Shown: in pieces, positions 4,401 to 17,780 of the stretch
How positions within the stretch are numbered: position 1 is the first letter of the stretch
Layout: the number at the start of each line of letters is the position of its first letter
DNA from: Apostichopus japonicus
Lineage: Eukaryota > Echinodermata > Holothuroidea > Aspidochirotida > Stichopodidae
NCBI RefSeq assembly: GCF_037975245.1
Contig: NC_092562.1
Coordinates: 28,409,554 to 28,473,553 of the forward strand
Reading direction: 5' to 3'
DNA: 64,000 bases
The notes under the pieces: model-generated
Seen by the model: the letters and a program-made list of their open reading frames with translations, nothing else
Databases searched by the model: none
What the model was told of the DNA's origin: nothing
Translations under genes and position numbers: made by a program

Positions 4401-7061
4401 GAGGAATGACAATGATCTGGGCCCAGGGCAAGCACGGTCTCTCCAACAGCGGCATAGCAAGCAATAAGAAAATGAGGGGTCTACCACAACCCCCTCCCCC
4501 AGCCCCTCCCCGCGCACCCACGCCTTGCCCGGAGCATTGATTAGGATGTAAAAACTTTAAAATGAGCGGTAACTGTGATTTGCACCGATTCTCAAATGCC
4601 AGTCCCAGCAGAATGCTAATGTATTTACGTGCCTCGGCAATATCCTTTTAACACTTTTGTTAGTAACGTTGATGACAACATACAAACATGGCCAGGAGGT
4701 CTACGTGATAAGCAGCAACATGCAACCGTGGCTTATGCGATTCACAATAGAAATTTACGTTAGCATACTAATCTTGTAATCAAACAAACCATATCAAAGA
4801 TAAGCATTCTTTAACTTCGAATTAATCTCCTCCTCCCGTTCATTCAAACATCCCTTTGAACTCTGTACTTGTCAGGGTAAGTACACATTGTGATTGTGTT
4901 GGAACATGGTGTACACCGGCTGATATGACATAACAAAATCACTTTGTGGTACTGAGGTAAATTTAGATAGATCTTGGTTGAAGTGTTTGCACGTGTTAAA
5001 ATGGAGACGCTATACAGTCTGTGGATTGGCAGGGAAAAATCCCGGATCAGAATCATGCAATGACCGCTACAGAGAATTGAGGATATGAACTAATAACTGG
5101 AAATCATAGAAGTAAAATAAAGAGCAAGAATTATCTCAGAATACTACAGCTTCCGGGTACTTCGACACCTGCACCCCCACTGGGGCTTTCAAATATATTC
5201 AAGTGTGTTGTTTTGCTTTACTAAATCACTTTACTAAATCAGAGAAAATTGAATTAATGAAAAGTGAAAATGTTACAGCTGAAGTCCTCAGGACCACTCT
5301 CAGGGCTTAGTATATGCTATATAGAACTTAAATGCATCTCTCTGACACGTATTTGCGTGTTTATAAAACTTGCTACGAGAAAACAAGAAGTCTCAGAAAC
5401 GATATTTCCCACTATAGGCTTCTGTTGTACAAGAAAAGTAACTTCTCTTTCTAACACGTATTTATGTGCTTCAAAATTGGTAGCAAAGCCAATATTTATC
5501 TCAAAATGTTGCAGCTTTAGGAGGCTTCGCCACACCCCTCAACTCTCAGCAAATAACAGTGTACACAATTGGAATACTTCAGGTGTACACGTATACAGCT
5601 GTAATTATAAAGCAAATTATCCCTTTTTAAGGCGTTACTCAGTCAGTTCCTGAAGTAGGTCTCAACAAAGTTAGTCGGTCTCAAAATCGAGCTACCATTT
5701 CATCTAACGCATGTGATATTATATTGCCACCAGGAGGTGAAAAAAACTTACATTCCCTTCAATTAATTACCTGTTTATTTTTGAAACGTTAAACTCTTTT
5801 ATTTTACTTTTACATTGATTATGCAAAATTTATTTATCTGTAATGTTTCTTTTGTTTCTTTCAGCATGACTTGAGGCAGACGACCATCTCCTTGACCAAG
5901 AAATTCATAAATATATTTGATGTTATTGAAGATATTAAATACATGAATGAAAACACAAGCTCTCGAGAATCTTTGTCCAGTTCCGTGTCAGGATCTCAAG
6001 AACACTTATCCCAGAACCAAAGGCAAAGACGGTATCATCTTCGAAAGCTTAGTCGATCTGTCCCGAATGCCCGAGGAGCCTGTCCAGACGTCATTAACAG
6101 ACAGCATCGGAAGCAATCGGAAGACCTTCGTCTACAACTCTTTGTCGAGCAAACACAAGATGCAGGCATAGACAGTAATAAGAAAACTGCTTCATCTGAA
6201 GGCAAACTATATGAAACGGTTGTTACCAAAAGTCCAAGGAGGGCATCCGATGATTCAGCGGCTAGGATTCCAAAAGTAACTGAATCTTTGCACCGTCGTT
6301 CAAGTTCTTTGAGTTATGGAGAAAAGAAGGAAGATCAATGGATGCAAAACATATTGGATATAGACAAACAACACCGATCGAGCCCGAGTTTCGCCGACCT
6401 TCTTCGTGCTCAGACCGATGAAATCGGTCATTATTTTCAGTTTGATGGACCTGCCATAGTTAACAATTGTGTCAATGGTGATGGCAGCAACGATTCAGTC
6501 GCCGTAGACGTTGATGACATATCAATGGAAGTTGACAAAGTTCTAGAATCACAGCCAGAGAATGAAATTGATTTAGATGCAGTTAATGATAAATATGACA
6601 ATCTAGATGAAGATATTATACCAGCCGAAAATGTTCAACAACATCCGACGGAGAATCACGATGTAACTACATCGCCTCCGTATAGCCCATCATTAGTTAA
6701 TGGTGACAGTCCAAGAAGAAGTTGGCTTCATGGAGAGGGGAGGTCTAGTTACCATGAACGGAGAGAAAAGACTGACACGGAAGAAAATGAGACCAGATCA
6801 AGATCGCGTAGCCTTCATATCATCGAAGCAAACACCTCGGACGAGGATGATCAAAATGGCCACCATGATGATAAATCCAAGGAAACAATACCAAAGAAAA
6901 AGCCGAAGAAGAAACTGCAGAGAAGTCCGACGTTTCATAGTACGAAGAAATACAACCGGCCAACTCCAACCAAAAAGGAAGATACGAGTCTTAGTCCACT
7001 GTCTCCCAGATATATCAAGCTTTTGTTAATGCTAGAAGAAGGAGAGGCTACGGATTTATAG
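1437..7061 (+). CDS. Uncharacterised acidic/basic disordered protein, two exons
   Basis: I do not recognise this protein. Exon 1 is 1437-1820 and ends TTG|gtatgt. Exon 2 is 5865-7061, preceded by tttcttttcag. Both junctions are phase 0, so the joined frame gives about 526 aa. An in-frame TGA at 1431-1433 supports the ATG at 1437 (or the adjacent ATG at 1440). Residues about 18-48 look helical and leucine-rich (WVELLVELLQEL), then come acidic stretches near the end of exon 1 (DYEDEDDEY). Exon 2 opens with a predicted helix (KKFINIFDVIEDIKYM). It continues as Ser/Arg/Asp/Glu-rich low-complexity sequence with several SP motifs and a Lys-rich patch (KKKPKKKL), and ends LLLMLEEGEATDL. The lysine patch could be a nuclear signal and the SP sites kinase targets, but that is inference. 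No signal peptide or membrane segment is evident. Further upstream exons cannot be excluded. Confidence 0.6.
1821..5864 (+). other. Intron of the 1437-7061 gene
   Basis: A 4.0 kb intron with canonical ends (gtatgt and tttcag). It is AT-rich, and I see no terminal repeats, no LINE or hAT coding remnants and no conserved exon in it. Short open frames here (for example near 4235-4540 and 5264-5653) have no coding character and are best read as chance. Confidence 0.5.
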
Positions 7062-10250: not shown

Positions 10251-10339
10251 AACTTGTAGTTAAATGTCATACATTGGTTTTATTGCAAAATGTTGCATCA
10301 GAGACCGACAATTCTCAAGTTTAATTGTAAGACACGATA

Positions 10340-10867
10340 CGAAATTCGACGTTGTTAGGCAAAGTTAGTGCCTGGTGTGACCGAAATAAAATGGCAATCA
10401 ACACCACTAAAACGAAGGTATTATTGATGGGATCTGATCAGAGACTGGCTTTATTACCTGACAATGCAAATACTCTTTCTGTGACACTCGGGGGCAAAAT
10501 TCTCAAGACTGTCAAATATGAAGAACTATTAGGTGTAAAAATTGATAACAATTTATCCTGGCATATTCAGGTTGACAACGTTTGTAAAACAGTCTCAAAT
10601 CGCCTTGCCTTACTGAGACGCATACAACCATATTTTGATTTAAATACGAAAATTATCTTCTATAATGGGTATGTACGACCCATTCTAGATTATTGTAGTA
10701 TAGTCTGGGGTACGTGTGGAGCAAATGATTTACAAAAGTTGTTACATATGCAAAAAGCAGCAGCGCGTATTATTACGAACTAGGGAAGATATGAAAGCTC
10801 GACAGAATTATTTAAAATGCTAAAGTGGCACCCTGTCGATACGCAAATACGTATACGACGATTGATC
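10340..10867 (+). pseudogene. LINE reverse-transcriptase C-terminus, left half of a split copy
   Basis: The frame from 10352 encodes a stretch typical of the end of a non-LTR reverse transcriptase. It has WCDRNKMAINTTKTKVLLMG, then LLGVKIDNNLSW, then YNGYVRPILDYCSIVWG, and a tail resembling KAAARIITN. The 5' part of the element is missing (5' truncation is usual for LINEs). One in-frame TAG at 10781-10783 shows it is dead, and the same frame then continues to about 10867. There a DNA transposon (10873-17320) interrupts it, and the frame resumes at 17321. The exact LINE clade (Jockey, CR1 or RTE type) was not determined. Confidence 0.8.
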
Positions 10868-10872
10868 ATGAT

Positions 10873-11230
10873 AGACTGGTTCCATTTCTCATAAAGAAAC
10901 TTGTCGAAGGCATTTTTGAGTACAAGCAATTGAAATGGTTCTTCTTAAGTGAAATTTTATGCTGATTACAGAAAGTCTGGTCCCCAAGCTGAATTTTGAA
11001 AAGAAGCATGCCTAATTTGCATAAATTCAAAATGGCCGACATTTTGATGAATTTTGTGCATAACACAAGATTTAAAGGACGTAAAGACTTTGTTCTTGCG
11101 TCAATACCCTTGTTTGTAAGGTCAAAGAATGCAATTATAATAATAGTTGTATCATTGGGTCATAAGTTGACCCTTAATTTGCATAAATTCAGAATAGCCA
11201 CCGTTTTGATGCATAACTGAAGATTTAAAA
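10873..11230 (+). repeat. Left terminal inverted repeat with about two subrepeats
   Basis: Two related blocks start with a TTTGCATAAATTCAxAATxGCC-like segment (near 11016 and 11178) and run through AAGATTTAAA. They correspond in inverse to the right-end block. Subterminal tandem blocks of this kind are often transposase-binding sites, which is inference here. Confidence 0.7.
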
Positions 11231-11982
11231 CCCTTTGAATCCTAATGTCGGATGATCCAACAAAACAAGCGATCAATTTCAACAACATTCTAGCTCCGTA
11301 ACCCAGTACCCCCCCCCCCCAAAAAAAAAGCCTGAAAACGGTAGAGCTTTTTAATCTGTAGCCAGTTAAGCATAGGCCAATTATAGAAGATTTTACAGCA
11401 GATTTTCCAAGGAATGGGTATATGGCCAGTCTGGGGCATTTTACTACATTGCGCAATCACGGAATGACCGCACGGTGGATTCGTAATTAGTTTTCCAGTG
11501 AAAACAGCTCAAATACACGTACAAACAGTCAGAAAAAGGCTGAAAAGGTCAGTATGAATGCAAGGAATAATACTAGGGTAATTATCTCAAGCTATTAAGC
11601 CAATTTCTTGGTGTTTCGGGATGAATGTCTGGTAGGTAGGCCTAAAGCCTAGTTTAGTTTAGCCTAGCCTAGTGTGTGAAGTTAATAGGCCAATGAAGTT
11701 AATAAGCCTGGTCTAGGCCTAGCTTTATGTAGGCTTAGTCAGTTATTGTGTGAGGTTAATAGGCCAATGCTTTGATCGTGATTCACGACTGTTCAAACGT
11801 GATTTACGACTATTTTGAAGAATATCATGGCTCAAACATAATATTTCTGGAATCCTGACTAAATGCCCGTTCCATTGATATAGGTTGCCATCAGTGACAA
11901 AAATATCTAGTTTTAGAGTAAAAAAATAGTTTCATTAAATGCACTAAATAACTTTCGGACCACAGGGTGTCACAATATTTGA

Positions 11983-12987
11983 TTGTTTCATCACTTTTCA
12001 GATTACAAGACTTTAAAACGTGTTGAGTTGAGAATGGATCCGGTAATTTGCTTGAAGAGACCATCTTCTGTAGACACCACGCTATGCATACTTTGCCAAG
12101 AAAGAGGCGGTAAACTTAGCAAACCCGGTACACAAGGAATGAACACTTTAACCAAAGCAACTGCAACTAGAAGAAAATCAAAGAATGATAACTTCCGGGA
12201 AGTAACTGACCGCCTTACAGGACTTTTGAACTCTGAACCAATACCAGCTTTAACATGGCACATGAAATGTTACCGTCCATATACAGACAGTACCAAACTG
12301 AAGAGATTGGAACCAATATGTAGCTCAAGCAAATCTGCAGATGATGAAGCCTCCAGCAGCACCCCTTCGCAAACCTGGTCCTCAAAACGCCGAAGTAGTG
12401 TAGCTCCAATTAACTGGAAACTTTGCATGTTTTGTCAGAAGTTTACTCAACAGAGACTTAGATCTATTATGTCGCTTGAATTAAGTGAGAGCATATTAAC
12501 AGATGCTAAGTTTCATCAAACAATGGGCATTCACCTTTCTGGTATAAATGATCTAATAGCTGCAGAAGGGCAATATCATCTGGAATGCTTGGGATATTTC
12601 CGACGATCCGTAGCAAAAACTCGTTCTTCCGCTGGAACTGAATTCTCTGATGTGCCAATGGAGTGGCTCTGTACAGAACTAAGATATGCAGCAGAGAAAG
12701 GCCACGTTCTTTGCCTAGATGATGTGTGGAATCGGTACATGACAATCGCAGAGGAGTCAAATATACCGATACCGAAGTCATTTATTAGTCGCCGAGCTAA
12801 TTTCACTACCAAATTGCGGTCGAAAGTTGAGGATGTCATAACCTTTGTAGTTTCAGAGGGACCTCGTTCAGAAACACGAACCGTTTTACTCCCAATAAAG
12901 TATACTGGTTCTGTAATGTATATCTGCCAATCAACCGCAGAAGCCAAGGATGACGAACGTGCTAACGATACCACCGTATGTGCCTGA
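11983..12987 (+). CDS. N-terminal part of the transposon-encoded protein
   Basis: An open frame of 334 codons. It may begin at the first ATG (11983) or after an acceptor-like cacttttcag at 11992-12001, with a methionine at 12034. It shows two metal-binding-looking units: CILCQ followed by HMKCY, and CMFCQ followed by YHLECL. These suggest paired C2HC-type zinc fingers, as DNA transposases often carry at the N-terminus. It ends in a TGA at 12985-12987, but the neighbouring frame is open from 12917 and continues the protein, so a frame change lies between 12917 and 12984. It is probably the first third of the protein completed by the frame at 13194-16643. Confidence 0.6.
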   Translation: MFHHFSDYKTLKRVELRMDPVICLKRPSSVDTTLCILCQERGGKLSKPGTQGMNTLTKATATRRKSKNDNFREVTDRLTGLLNSEPIPALTWHMKCYRPYTDSTKLKRLEPICSSSKSADDEASSSTPSQTWSSKRRSSVAPINWKLCMFCQKFTQQRLRSIMSLELSESILTDAKFHQTMGIHLSGINDLIAAEGQYHLECLGYFRRSVAKTRSSAGTEFSDVPMEWLCTELRYAAEKGHVLCLDDVWNRYMTIAEESNIPIPKSFISRRANFTTKLRSKVEDVITFVVSEGPRSETRTVLLPIKYTGSVMYICQSTAEAKDDERANDTTVCA

Positions 12988-13193
12988 AGACGACACTTTT
13001 ATATCTTTGGTACATGTAGCTCTGAAGATTCGTGGTGATTTGATGGCAAAAGAAGGCCACAAAGGTTTGTCAGTCAGTGAAGAAGATTCTCTGGAATGTA
13101 TCCCAGATAGCCTCTATCTGTTTTTGAATCTTGTATTCAATGGTACCACTCAGCTTGAAAATGAAAACATAGGCGAAGGAGAGAGAGAATACA
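12917..13193 (+). pseudogene. Middle segment of the transposon protein, in a shifted frame
   Basis: This frame is open from 12917 to 13360 and carries coding-looking sequence up to about 13190 (PDSLYLFLNLVFNGTTQ). It links the N-terminal frame to the main frame, which is open from 13173. The second shift falls at or near a GAGAGAGA run at 13181-13188, a natural site for an indel. Both changes are +1 in the reading direction. A small intron is possible but I see no convincing pair of splice sites. Decay is the simplest reading. Confidence 0.5.
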
Positions 13194-16100
13194 ATGAAGC
13201 AAAGCATATTAAGTACAGCTCAAGATATTGTGTATGTTGCAAGTGGAGGCAAAAAGTGGACACCAAAACACATTGGTCTAGCCAGTACACTTCATCAGGC
13301 AACACGGTCCAAAGTTCTGGTAGATTTATTTCACAAGGCTGGTCACACACTAAGCTATAAGCAAGTTCTGCAATTAGATACAGCATTGGCAGAAAGTACC
13401 CCGAAGTCGATGGATCCACAAACTGGAGCTGTTATGCCTCCAAACATTATGCAAGACACATTTATGCACTTCACAGCCGATAATATCGACATTCTCGACG
13501 AGACTCTAGATGGAAAAAACACTTTCCATGCCACCCAGATGGCAGTATGGCAGCGAGGGCCATCAAATGATGTTCGCCTTAACGACATTACACGATCAAG
13601 CACAAGTAGCCAGACGTTAAAAGTGCCAGATGCAATGGATACCTTGATCCCCGTTAGTAAACCTGTTCAAAAGACAGAGCCAGTGTTACCGGAATGCTGC
13701 GAACAAGACATCGTTCTAGAACAGTCAGAGTGTGCGACAAAGTGTGCCAGAGAAGCATTTGCTACCGACCTGACATTCAACATTTTGCGGCAAAGAGGGA
13801 CAGTTACTTCCAGCTGGACAGTTTTCAACGAAAAAATTTCCTCTCAGTCTCAACCAATGACTTCAGTCGGCTATATGCCTATAATCCAGGCTCCAGCTCA
13901 TGAATATGACACTCTCAATACAGTTGTTCGTAGGTGCTTCCAAGTCTCCGCACATGCAGGGCAGGAGTTTACAGTTCTTACTGTTGACCAAGCCTTATAC
14001 TGCAAGCTAATGGAGCTCAAATGGGCCCACCCAGAAGAGTATAAGAACCTCATACCACGACTAGGAGGGCTTCATATATCAATGAACTTTCTCAACGTCA
14101 TTGGAACACATATGGAGGGCTCAAGATTAGCAGAGGTATGGATAGAGGCAGGTATATTTGGACAAAATACTGCCCAACAGGCAATGAATGGTAAGAGCTA
14201 CAACAAGGCCACGAGGGCCCATAAACTGACAGTTCAGGCTTTGTGGCGTTTGCTAGGGCCAAGTATTCTACACCATATTGACGCTACTGACAAGCAAATG
14301 TATGGTGACATTTCACAGGCTGATACACAAGACCTGATAGGAATTCTCAACAGTCAGTCATTCGGAAGAATAATGGAAAATTTTGAAGAAAAGAGACGAG
14401 AGGAGAATGTCAACTTTGACTTCTGGTGGAAATACATAAAAATGGTTGAGACTCTCCTTATGTTCACACGTGCCCAGCGTGATGGTGTATGGGATCTGCA
14501 CCTGTTTGCCTTCCGTGAGATGTTGCCCTACTTTCTTAGGTATGACCACTATAATTATGGGCGTTGGGGTCCCGTGTATCTTGCAGAGATGTCGCAGTTG
14601 CCAGCAGATGTATTAACTGAGTTTCAGCGGGGAAACTTTGTTGTGAAGGGATCAAATCGCCGATTCAATCAAGTTGATCCTGATCAAGCGCAGGAATGGT
14701 TGAACGGAACGGGAAAGCGTGGTGGTGGAATAGTTGGAATTACCAAGACAAGTTCTGCACTCACTCGCTGGGCTCTTTCTTACAATCTGCGTTCACATAT
14801 TGCATTGGAAACCAGAAGGATGTATCACATGAGTCACACGGACCGGCATTGTCGAAATGAAGAAATGCCTAGCCGCCAGGAGAAAGACAACACTGATGAG
14901 CAGTCCCTCGTGTCTGTATTTCAACGATTCAAGGTTTTTGATCCTACTGTCCAGCCAACTGCTCTTCAAAGCATTGTGACGAAAGATCTGGCTGATGAAC
15001 AAATTCAAGACTCGTTGTTAAATGCTCAGACCTATGGCAAGCAGCAGCTGCAGGAATTTGTCAAAGACAGACTTGTGATAGATCTTAATAAGTCCTCACC
15101 CAATAAATCACTTTATGACCCTATCACTAAAAACAATGCACCGACTTTTGAAACCCTGTACGAGGTCAAGATATCGGGTAGTGACAAGGATAAAACAAAG
15201 ATCCTGAAGACCGACAGGAACATCTTGCAACGTCTCATCATTGCATATGCAGGAGGGCGCAAAGTGGATCTTGATACTGTTCTGAAGCATGAACTGATGC
15301 CTGTACCACTCGCCCTTGCCAATGTTAATGGTACGCTTAGGACAGGGAACAAAGCAACCCTAGCCGACGTAATAACAGCGGAAGTCGAATGCCCTGCAAA
15401 TATTGATTTCAACAAAAGTACTGCTTGCTTGGTGATAGATGGGCAGGTCAGAGTAATTGCTGTCGGCAAGCCAACTAATGCTAAGACGTTTGGAGACCTA
15501 GCAGATGAGTTTACAAAGTCTATATATCAATCGGGTTCTAACTATTGTAGAATAGATGTGGTATTTGATAGATATCGTGAAGAGTCAATCAAATCTATGA
15601 CACGACAAAGGCGCTCTAAAACCATAAGACCAATACGACGCGTAATTGAAGGTAGAGATGTCCCTCTCCCAAGCTCATGGTCCAATTTCATATCCTCACC
15701 AGACAACAAGTCAGATCTTGCGAGGTTTCTTTCCGAGCAACTCTTAGAAAATGCTCCACCCGACAAGGAGTTGGTTGTAGCTGGTGGATTTGAGAATGAA
15801 CAGGAGGTAAAATCTTCTCACACAGCAACTAACATCATGCCTCTCAGAGCGTCTCACGAAGAAGCAGATACTAGACTTGTCCTGCACGCAGTCAACATCC
15901 CTTTTGACACAGTTGTGGTTTCAGCACAAGACACCGATGTCCTTCTGCTCTTGGTTGCACATTTTCACCGTGTCCAGTGCAACCACTTATGGATGATGGC
16001 TGGAACGAAGAAGAAAAGGAAGTACATTCCTGTTGATGCCGTTCGTCAAAAATTGCCGACTGGTTCTGAAAATGCCTTACTTCCATTCCACGCACTAACA

Positions 16101-16643
16101 GGGTGCGACACAACTTCTTACTTCTTTGGTCACACAAAGAAAACAGCATGGAGAGTGTTTGCTACCCATTTTGAACTACTGAGTAGTCTTGGTGAAGGCT
16201 TGTTAAATGCAGATAAGATATCATCCACAGAAAAGTTTGTATCCCTCATGTATGGTGTTGACACAGCTTCGGTAGATACTGCACGTCGAATCATGTTTGA
16301 GAAGGCCAAAAAACATGAGTGTTTGCCTCCGACCAGTAATTCGCTACATCATCATATCCAGCGTGTACACTTTCAAACCATGGTATGGAAAGAAGCTCAC
16401 TGCCCAACACCTGATCTACCAGATCCAGCTGATATGGGTTGGAAGCGAGGAGATACAGGATTGCGACCCATTCTGATGACTCTGGATCCCATTCCCGACG
16501 TGTGTGTGGAACTGATTTCTTGCGGATGTACAACAGCATGTAATACCATGCAGTGCAAGTGCAGAAAGGCACGTATTCCTTGCATTGGCCAATGTGGCTG
16601 TAGAAAACGTGGACCCGAATGCTTCAACGTAAGAGACAACTAA
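13194..16643 (+). CDS. Transposase-like protein with XPG-like motif and C-terminal CXC cluster
   Basis: An open frame of 1149 codons. Visible landmarks by residue: KKWTPKHIGLA (20-30); TADNIDILDETLDGKNTFHA (94-113), rich in acidic residues that could be catalytic; DHYNYGRWGPVYLAEM (about 452); HEEADTR (about 889) followed by a DTDVLLLLVAHF stretch (about 915), a spacing and pattern like the XPG/FEN1 internal nuclease motif; LTGCDTTSYFFG (about 969). At the C-terminus (about 1108-1145) a dense CxC cluster resembles the tesmin/TSO1 CXC fold. I know similar large proteins from marine invertebrate genomes as uncharacterised multi-copy genes. The inverted ends and target duplication around this copy show it belongs to a DNA transposon. 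The upstream frame changes mean this copy is probably not fully functional, although this stretch itself is intact. Confidence 0.7.
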   Translation: MKQSILSTAQDIVYVASGGKKWTPKHIGLASTLHQATRSKVLVDLFHKAGHTLSYKQVLQLDTALAESTPKSMDPQTGAVMPPNIMQDTFMHFTADNIDILDETLDGKNTFHATQMAVWQRGPSNDVRLNDITRSSTSSQTLKVPDAMDTLIPVSKPVQKTEPVLPECCEQDIVLEQSECATKCAREAFATDLTFNILRQRGTVTSSWTVFNEKISSQSQPMTSVGYMPIIQAPAHEYDTLNTVVRRCFQVSAHAGQEFTVLTVDQALYCKLMELKWAHPEEYKNLIPRLGGLHISMNFLNVIGTHMEGSRLAEVWIEAGIFGQNTAQQAMNGKSYNKATRAHKLTVQALWRLLGPSILHHIDATDKQMYGDISQADTQDLIGILNSQSFGRIMENFEEKRREENVNFDFWWKYIKMVETLLMFTRAQRDGVWDLHLFAFREMLPYFLRYDHYNYGRWGPVYLAEMSQLPADVLTEFQRGNFVVKGSNRRFNQVDPDQAQEWLNGTGKRGGGIVGITKTSSALTRWALSYNLRSHIALETRRMYHMSHTDRHCRNEEMPSRQEKDNTDEQSLVSVFQRFKVFDPTVQPTALQSIVTKDLADEQIQDSLLNAQTYGKQQLQEFVKDRLVIDLNKSSPNKSLYDPITKNNAPTFETLYEVKISGSDKDKTKILKTDRNILQRLIIAYAGGRKVDLDTVLKHELMPVPLALANVNGTLRTGNKATLADVITAEVECPANIDFNKSTACLVIDGQVRVIAVGKPTNAKTFGDLADEFTKSIYQSGSNYCRIDVVFDRYREESIKSMTRQRRSKTIRPIRRVIEGRDVPLPSSWSNFISSPDNKSDLARFLSEQLLENAPPDKELVVAGGFENEQEVKSSHTATNIMPLRASHEEADTRLVLHAVNIPFDTVVVSAQDTDVLLLLVAHFHRVQCNHLWMMAGTKKKRKYIPVDAVRQKLPTGSENALLPFHALTGCDTTSYFFGHTKKTAWRVFATHFELLSSLGEGLLNADKISSTEKFVSLMYGVDTASVDTARRIMFEKAKKHECLPPTSNSLHHHIQRVHFQTMVWKEAHCPTPDLPDPADMGWKRGDTGLRPILMTLDPIPDVCVELISCGCTTACNTMQCKCRKARIPCIGQCGCRKRGPECFNVRDN

Positions 16644-16804
16644 TTGGTGGTTATTCAGAGACATAAATTTCATCCGTAAGTAAATGATCAATGAATTCTT
16701 TATGTTCCAATGTAATGTAAAAAGTATAAATTATCATTTTTAAACTCTAGAAACCGTTTTTGGCAAAAAGCGACATTAATCTAAACCCGAGAAAGACAGA
16801 TTAG

Positions 16805-17320
16805 ATAACTTTTAGAATGGCGTATTGTTGAACTTGTGCAAGATAGGTGTGAGCATATTACCCAATGATATAATTACGGTTATAAATGAATTTTTTGACA
16901 CTGAAAACATAGGTATAGACACAACAATGAAGTCTCTACGGGTCTTGAATCTTGAGTTATGCATCAAAGCATCAAATTGGCGGCCATTTTGCATTTATGC
17001 AAATTAAGTGTAAACATTTATCATCCAATCATACAATTAATGTTATAAACGTACTCTTTGACACTGAAAACATAGGTATAGACACAAGAACGAAGTCTCT
17101 ACGAGTCTTGAATCTTGAGTTATACACCAAAATCATAAAGTTGTCGGCCATTTTGAATTTATGCAAATTAGACACATTTTCTCTCAAAATTCAGCTTGGG
17201 GACCAGGCTTTTTGAAATCAGCATAAAATTTTCATAGAGAAACAATATTTCAATTGCTTGTACTCAAAAATGCCTTCGTCATCATTTTAGGGGGATCTCT
17301 ATGAGAAATGGAACCAGTCT
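16805..17320 (-). repeat. Right terminal inverted repeat, tandem subrepeat array
   Basis: About three related blocks of roughly 150 bp (recurring ACTGAAAACATAGGTATAGA, GAAGTCTCTACG, CTTGAATCTTGAGTTAT and GGCCATTTTG words) run to the outer end. In reverse complement they match the left end, which has fewer copies. Unequal block number between the two ends is visible. Confidence 0.7.
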
Positions 17321-17780
17321 ATGATGTACAAGACCATGAATGGCCTCTCCCCAAATTATCTAACCCAGTTATTCAACTTTACACACGAAATTCATAATCA
17401 CAATTTGAGATCCACGACCCAAAGTAACTTATACCTGAAAGATGGTAAAACGGAATATCACAAGCGTAGATTTTCCTTCATAGCTGCCAAAGAATGGAAT
17501 AGTTTGCCAGCTGAATGCAAGCATGCCAAATCTTTACCTATTTTTAAAAGTTTAGTCAATGAATTTTTCAAGTCTTAATCATCTCATTACGCTTTTATGT
17601 TCTATACCCATTTTTACAGTTTTGTGATTTACTGTTGTATATTTGTATGTTTAATAGTCTTACTCTTTGTTTATTGTTTTATAATATTATTCTTTTTATA
17701 CTGATTGTATTCCTCGGGGAAGATTAGCTTTGGCTAACCGAGTCACCCTTTTAAAGGTTAATAATAATAATAATAATAAC
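17321..17780 (+). pseudogene. LINE reverse-transcriptase C-terminus, right half plus 3' tail
   Basis: Continues the LINE interrupted at 10872. The frame gives MMYKTMNGLSPNYLTQLF, then HNHNLRSTTQSNLYL, then FSFIAAKEWNSLPAECK, and a stop at 17576-17578. This is the usual final segment of CR1/L2/Jockey-like ORF2 proteins. The 3' UTR ends with a GGCTAACCGAGTCACCC block and an (AAT)n tail at about 17760-17780, typical of a LINE 3' end. This half has no internal stop. Confidence 0.8.

Follow-up and report, generated by a model that had tools for sequence, protein, structure and literature searches.

A probable nuclease-bearing, AcademX-like Academ transposon in the genome of the holothurian Apostichopus japonicus

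The window analysed here, a stretch of 64,000 nucleotides of the Apostichopus japonicus genome (contig NC_092562.1), contains a DNA transposon of 6450 bp on the forward strand at positions 10872-17321, which reads TAGACTGG...CCAGTCTA and whose ends are set by four complete copies at different sites. The same comparison of copies identifies the trinucleotide TGA on either side of the element (10869-10871 on the left, 17322-17324 on the right) as the target-site duplication. The termini are inverted repeats: the left arm, on the forward strand, extends over at least 10872-11165 and is 79% identical over 298 bases to the right arm, which lies on the reverse strand at 17018-17321; in a second complete copy, L009, the arms are 77.8% identical over 387 aligned columns. 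The inner part of the right arm is partially duplicated at 16856-17006, and two partial copies of a subterminal unit of about 150 bp, 78-79% similar to the left arm, are found at 16856-17170. No tandem array was detected by TRF. Elsewhere in the window, a 405-aa open frame at 5844-7061 weakly resembles the leucine rich adaptor protein family (LURAP, E = 2.2e-4, below the cut-off) and is possibly an exon of a host gene.

The host genome (671.6 Mb in 35 contigs) was searched with the first 300 bases of the element, which gave 23 matches. The complete copies, apart from that in the window, are L009 (C9:12.4M; 6451 bp), L010 (C9:20.3M; 7719 bp) and L011 (C16:0.65M; 6432 bp), and the four members of this family are 98.8-99.4% identical in pairwise comparisons, from which we conclude that they are young. 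L010 (C9:20317900-20326000) exceeds the window copy in length by about 1.27 kb. With the C-terminal third of the protein as query, at least 121 matches reached E <= 0.001; these are matches to the protein, fragments included, and not transposon copies. Two related families with about 30% protein identity are present in the same genome, one comprising L034-L036 (8391 bp, L049) and the other L026/L027 (8991 bp, L048). No relative was detected in scans of viral contigs, whether the query was the protein, its core or the XPG-like alignment, and a scan of prokaryotic contigs yielded a single one (L072) among five pattern matches. This relative, a 1466-aa frame on contig JAJRVU010000273.1 of a Planctomycetota bin, is identical to the host family member L048 at 1190 of 1453 aligned residues (82%) and is probably eukaryotic DNA inside that bin.

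The protein frame of the window copy is broken into two open stretches on the forward strand, the first of 334 aa (11983-12987, with its first ATG near 12036) and the main one of 1156 aa (13173-16643). Single frames of 1551, 1572, 1554 and 1552 aa are found in L048, L049, L050 and L009, respectively, and the longest frames of L010 and L011 encode 1276 and 1356 aa; in L066, L067, L069 and L071 the protein occurs as two frames, of about 580-670 and 760-950 aa. The first stretch contains two zinc-finger-like CxxC...HxxxC units, the first recognized by eye (12085-12270) and the second at 12424-12588; similar cysteines and the histidine of the second unit are seen in three aligned related families, one of which has an insertion. 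The main stretch comprises a conserved core, presumed to be the transposase (13935-15377), an XPG/FEN-like nuclease region (15375-16232) and a C-terminal CXC (tesmin/TSO1, LIN54-like) cysteine cluster (16521-16622), a domain named from the matches of the relatives. The two zinc-finger-like units, the HEEAD...DTDVLL stretch and the cysteine cluster that the initial annotation had described are all present in the window frames. For the comparisons below, 20 rows were picked from a longer list of frames (alignment A1), and 14 of these were used to assess conservation after L009, L040, L041, L045, L066 and L067 had been dropped as near-duplicates or fragments.

The nuclease region is marked by three motifs, EEAD (nt 15858), DTD (nt 15930) and GCD (nt 16101), and the EE, D, D and D residues of EEAD/DTD are identical in all 13 rows. 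When a 19-row profile of the region was compared with the PDB at E <= 10, all five matches were to EXO1 (four) or GEN1 (one), with E-values of 0.53-1.6, none of them significant alone and the four EXO1 sequences being versions of one protein; in the EXO1 alignments two stretches follow one another as they do in the element, although the first contributes no more than 1.2 bits. A 12-row profile (A4), made of 11 of the 19 rows of A2 plus L072, matched GEN1 alone (E = 0.91), EXO1 dropping out. In hhalign comparisons with nine bacterial and phage 5' nucleases the score was 27.8 (probability 6% at best), against 22.7 for the best of 100 column shuffles, 13.6 for the reversed control and 14.1 for the core alignment, and the alignment places DTD over DxD and the GCD...GKGK stretch over its 5'-nuclease counterpart. 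With E. coli PolA alone, HEEADTR/DTD falls over VEADD/DKD at a probability of 2.4%. Comparison with an asteroid-like protein of the host that matches XPG_N gave a score of 21.8, which exceeds every one of 40 sequence shuffles (maximum 20.5) but not the highest of 40 column shuffles (22.7), and its addition to the nuclease set lowered the score from 27.8 to 24.1. Genome searches with XPG_N (three matches) and XPG_I (six matches) listed none at the places of the transposon protein matches; the matches in host XPG genes are split, which suggests introns. One of the 20 members has a match, at E = 0.038, to the model for archaeal flap endonucleases. The XPG-like character proposed initially is favoured by the acidic motifs and by the weak EXO1 and GEN1 matches but not by Pfam, where XPG is absent from the eight families listed for 19 domain members. 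With similarity near the detection limit and results pointing both ways, the region is, in our judgment, quite probably an XPG/FEN-like nuclease.

Within the core, aspartates are identical in every row that has the residue, at nt 13986 (7/7), nt 14544 (9/9) and nt 14682 (9/9), in the 14-row alignment, and we infer that these three positions are a candidate transposase triad. DUF6589, a family of unknown function, recurs in the core in seven of the 20 members (best E = 0.0046), every score seen being below the Pfam cut-off, and the core matches none of the named transposase models. A profile of the core gave nothing significant in the PDB, with one weak unrelated match, and searches of the PDB with single sequences likewise produced weak unrelated matches; a literature search in one library returned no paper on DUF6589. 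For the pair L048 and L072, dN/dS is 0.156 overall, 0.113 in the core, 0.098 in the XPG-like region and 0.244 in the tail, values that indicate purifying selection on the protein, nuclease region included, in this one pair of relatives.

The C-terminal cluster shares its cysteine pattern with the CXC domain of LIN54 and tesmin. The profile search that the initial annotation had proposed for it bears out the assignment for the relatives, nine of 20 of which match the Pfam TCR (CXC) model at E <= 1 (best 3.3e-7, some below the cut-off), but the window protein itself has no match to the Pfam CXC/TCR models. A profile of the full protein had one match in the PDB, to LIN54 (E = 0.014); two stretches of the LIN54 chain were matched, whereas one CXC unit is seen in the element protein. 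No paper joining tesmin, the CXC domain and a DNA transposon was found in a literature search of one library.

We consider the element to be very probably a nuclease-bearing, AcademX-like Academ transposon of the autonomous cut-and-paste type, matched to that group by description and recently inserted in LINE-like sequence. The central core would then act as a DDD/E-type transposase, predicted to cut the ends and join them to the target, whose two strands would be attacked with a stagger of 3 bp; the duplication would arise when the host repairs the 3-nt gaps. The XPG/FEN-like domain may cut or trim 5' flaps or the non-transferred strand at the transposon ends, and the CXC domain and the zinc-finger-like units might hold the ends or chromatin. 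Because its frame is broken, the window copy would need protein from another copy. It is conceivable, though rather unlikely, that the element represents a distinct branch of Academ that combines a LIN54-like CXC domain, a FEN-type nuclease and a transposase in one protein and in which the nuclease performs an essential DNA-cutting step; if so, a repair-type flap nuclease has been turned into part of a transposase. It is very unlikely that transposition is catalysed mainly by the nuclease, with the core serving as a DNA-binding scaffold instead of a DDD/E enzyme. The complete conservation of the acidic residues, a dN/dS as low as that of the core in the one pair compared and the lack of a match between the core and any named transposase model would agree with such a role, but invariant aspartates are found in the core too, and no FEN-type enzyme is known to join DNA strands. 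Also counting against it, Academ is listed among the DDD/E superfamilies in the excerpt of PMC9587614. Because this genome contains several recent, nearly identical copies as well as relatives with single long frames, it would allow the role of the FEN-like nuclease in transposition to be tested.

The AcademX-like reading was first obscured by the ends. The initial annotation had placed the element at 10868-17325, with inverted ends starting AGACTGG and a 5-bp duplication, and in the window alone ATGAT on both sides with AGACTGG ends can also be read; as the empty site is the same under the ATGAT and TGA readings, the other copies alone can decide. They establish that the duplication is 3 bp long: a 3-bp duplication and TAG...CTA ends are found in all nine copies with both ends seen, distributed over three families (4 + 3 + 2), which rules out ATGAT. 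The duplications in the window family, in element orientation, are TGA, CAT, TAC and TAT, none of which extends to 4 bp, and all four complete copies start with TAGACTGG and finish with CCAGTCTA. Those of the L034-L036 family, whose far end was set by comparing three copies, are GGA, ACA and GTA, and those of the L026/L027 family TAG and ATG. The count of nine excludes L012, L013 and L063-L065 (one end seen), L014-L017 and L050 (ends not found) and L066-L071 (taken for protein only). The visible end of L012, a partial copy, is TATACTGG, as opposed to TAGACTGG in the complete copies. A short end pattern was uninformative, its 11,273 matches being fewer than those of its reversed control. The view of the locus as a DNA transposon with intact, inverted ends is thus confirmed by the four complete copies, whereas its span is corrected to 10872-17321 and its ends begin with TAGACTGG (TAG); the genome search with the ends, suggested as a check on the generality of the 5-bp duplication, retrieved copies with 3 bp. 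A separate superfamily defined by 5-bp duplications and AGACTGG ends is accordingly very improbable: the window copy by itself permits it, but the other three complete copies of the family have 3-bp repeats and flanks without a 5-bp repeat, and all five copies of the two related families have 3 bp as well. That the protein is a host gene or a co-opted protein between unrelated repeats can be dismissed with near certainty, for although CXC and XPG-like domains do occur in host proteins (LIN54, EXO1/GEN1 chains), the whole unit, both ends included, recurs at other sites, each time flanked by a different 3-bp repeat, and the protein has many matches.

The Academ-type element separates two parts of an open frame on the forward strand, the left at 10331-10871 and the right, in frame with it, at 17325-17574, labelled LINE-like by eye. 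When the flanks are joined with one copy of the repeat they read ...RIRRLIM|MYKTMNGL..., open in one of three frames, and retaining both copies of the 3-bp repeat does not close the joined frame either; the frame therefore supports an insertion without fixing its exact base, contrary to the earlier contention that frame, ends and ATGAT together did so. The left part contains a pre-existing stop near 10781-10783. Judged by eye, the interrupted frame is plausibly that of a LINE reverse transcriptase, as had been proposed at the outset. Its interruption and resumption are borne out, but its LINE identity receives no Pfam match at E <= 10, be it from the left piece (150 aa), the right piece (82 aa) or the joined one (112 aa), and the PDB yields just one match to the left piece, weak and unrelated. 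The LINE label is plausible; since the Academ placement is independent of it, the odds of that placement are unchanged by its weakening.

Among known systems, the element fits Academ, a known nuclease-carrying group, rather than a new system. Kolobok and piggyBac elements duplicate the 4-bp TTAA, at variance with the nine duplications given above, and Zisupton/KDZ elements duplicate 8 bp, against 3 bp here. The 5' nucleases of the FEN1/EXO1/GEN1/XPG type share with the element the order of the acidic motifs and the aligned GCD...GKGK stretch (EXO1, GEN1 and 5' nucleases); the version in the element differs in being fused to a transposon core. Within Academ, the nuclease of AcademX is of the XPG type. 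Helicase is absent from the 14 Pfam families listed for the 20 members at E <= 1. The excerpt of PMC10045372 gives AcademH duplications of 9 or 10 bp and a relation to helicase, so that this group shares the superfamily name with our element but differs from it in both respects. For comparison of size, curated bivalve Academ elements have a mean length of 5565 bp in the excerpt of PMC10294476. For the AcademX lineage, PMC4455052 and PMC10045372 cite Kapitonov and Jurka 2010 and Kojima 2020. The initial annotation had named Academ as the nearest group but doubted it on the length of the duplication, a doubt that rested on the 5-bp reading; with the actual 3 bp the apparent conflict is removed, and the placement agrees with the duplication length of 3 or 4 bp that the excerpt of PMC10045372 gives for AcademX, a group that it also relates to a nuclease. 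It is on the 3-bp duplication, the probable nuclease and the lack of a helicase match that the fit to AcademX, a group known here by its description, is founded.
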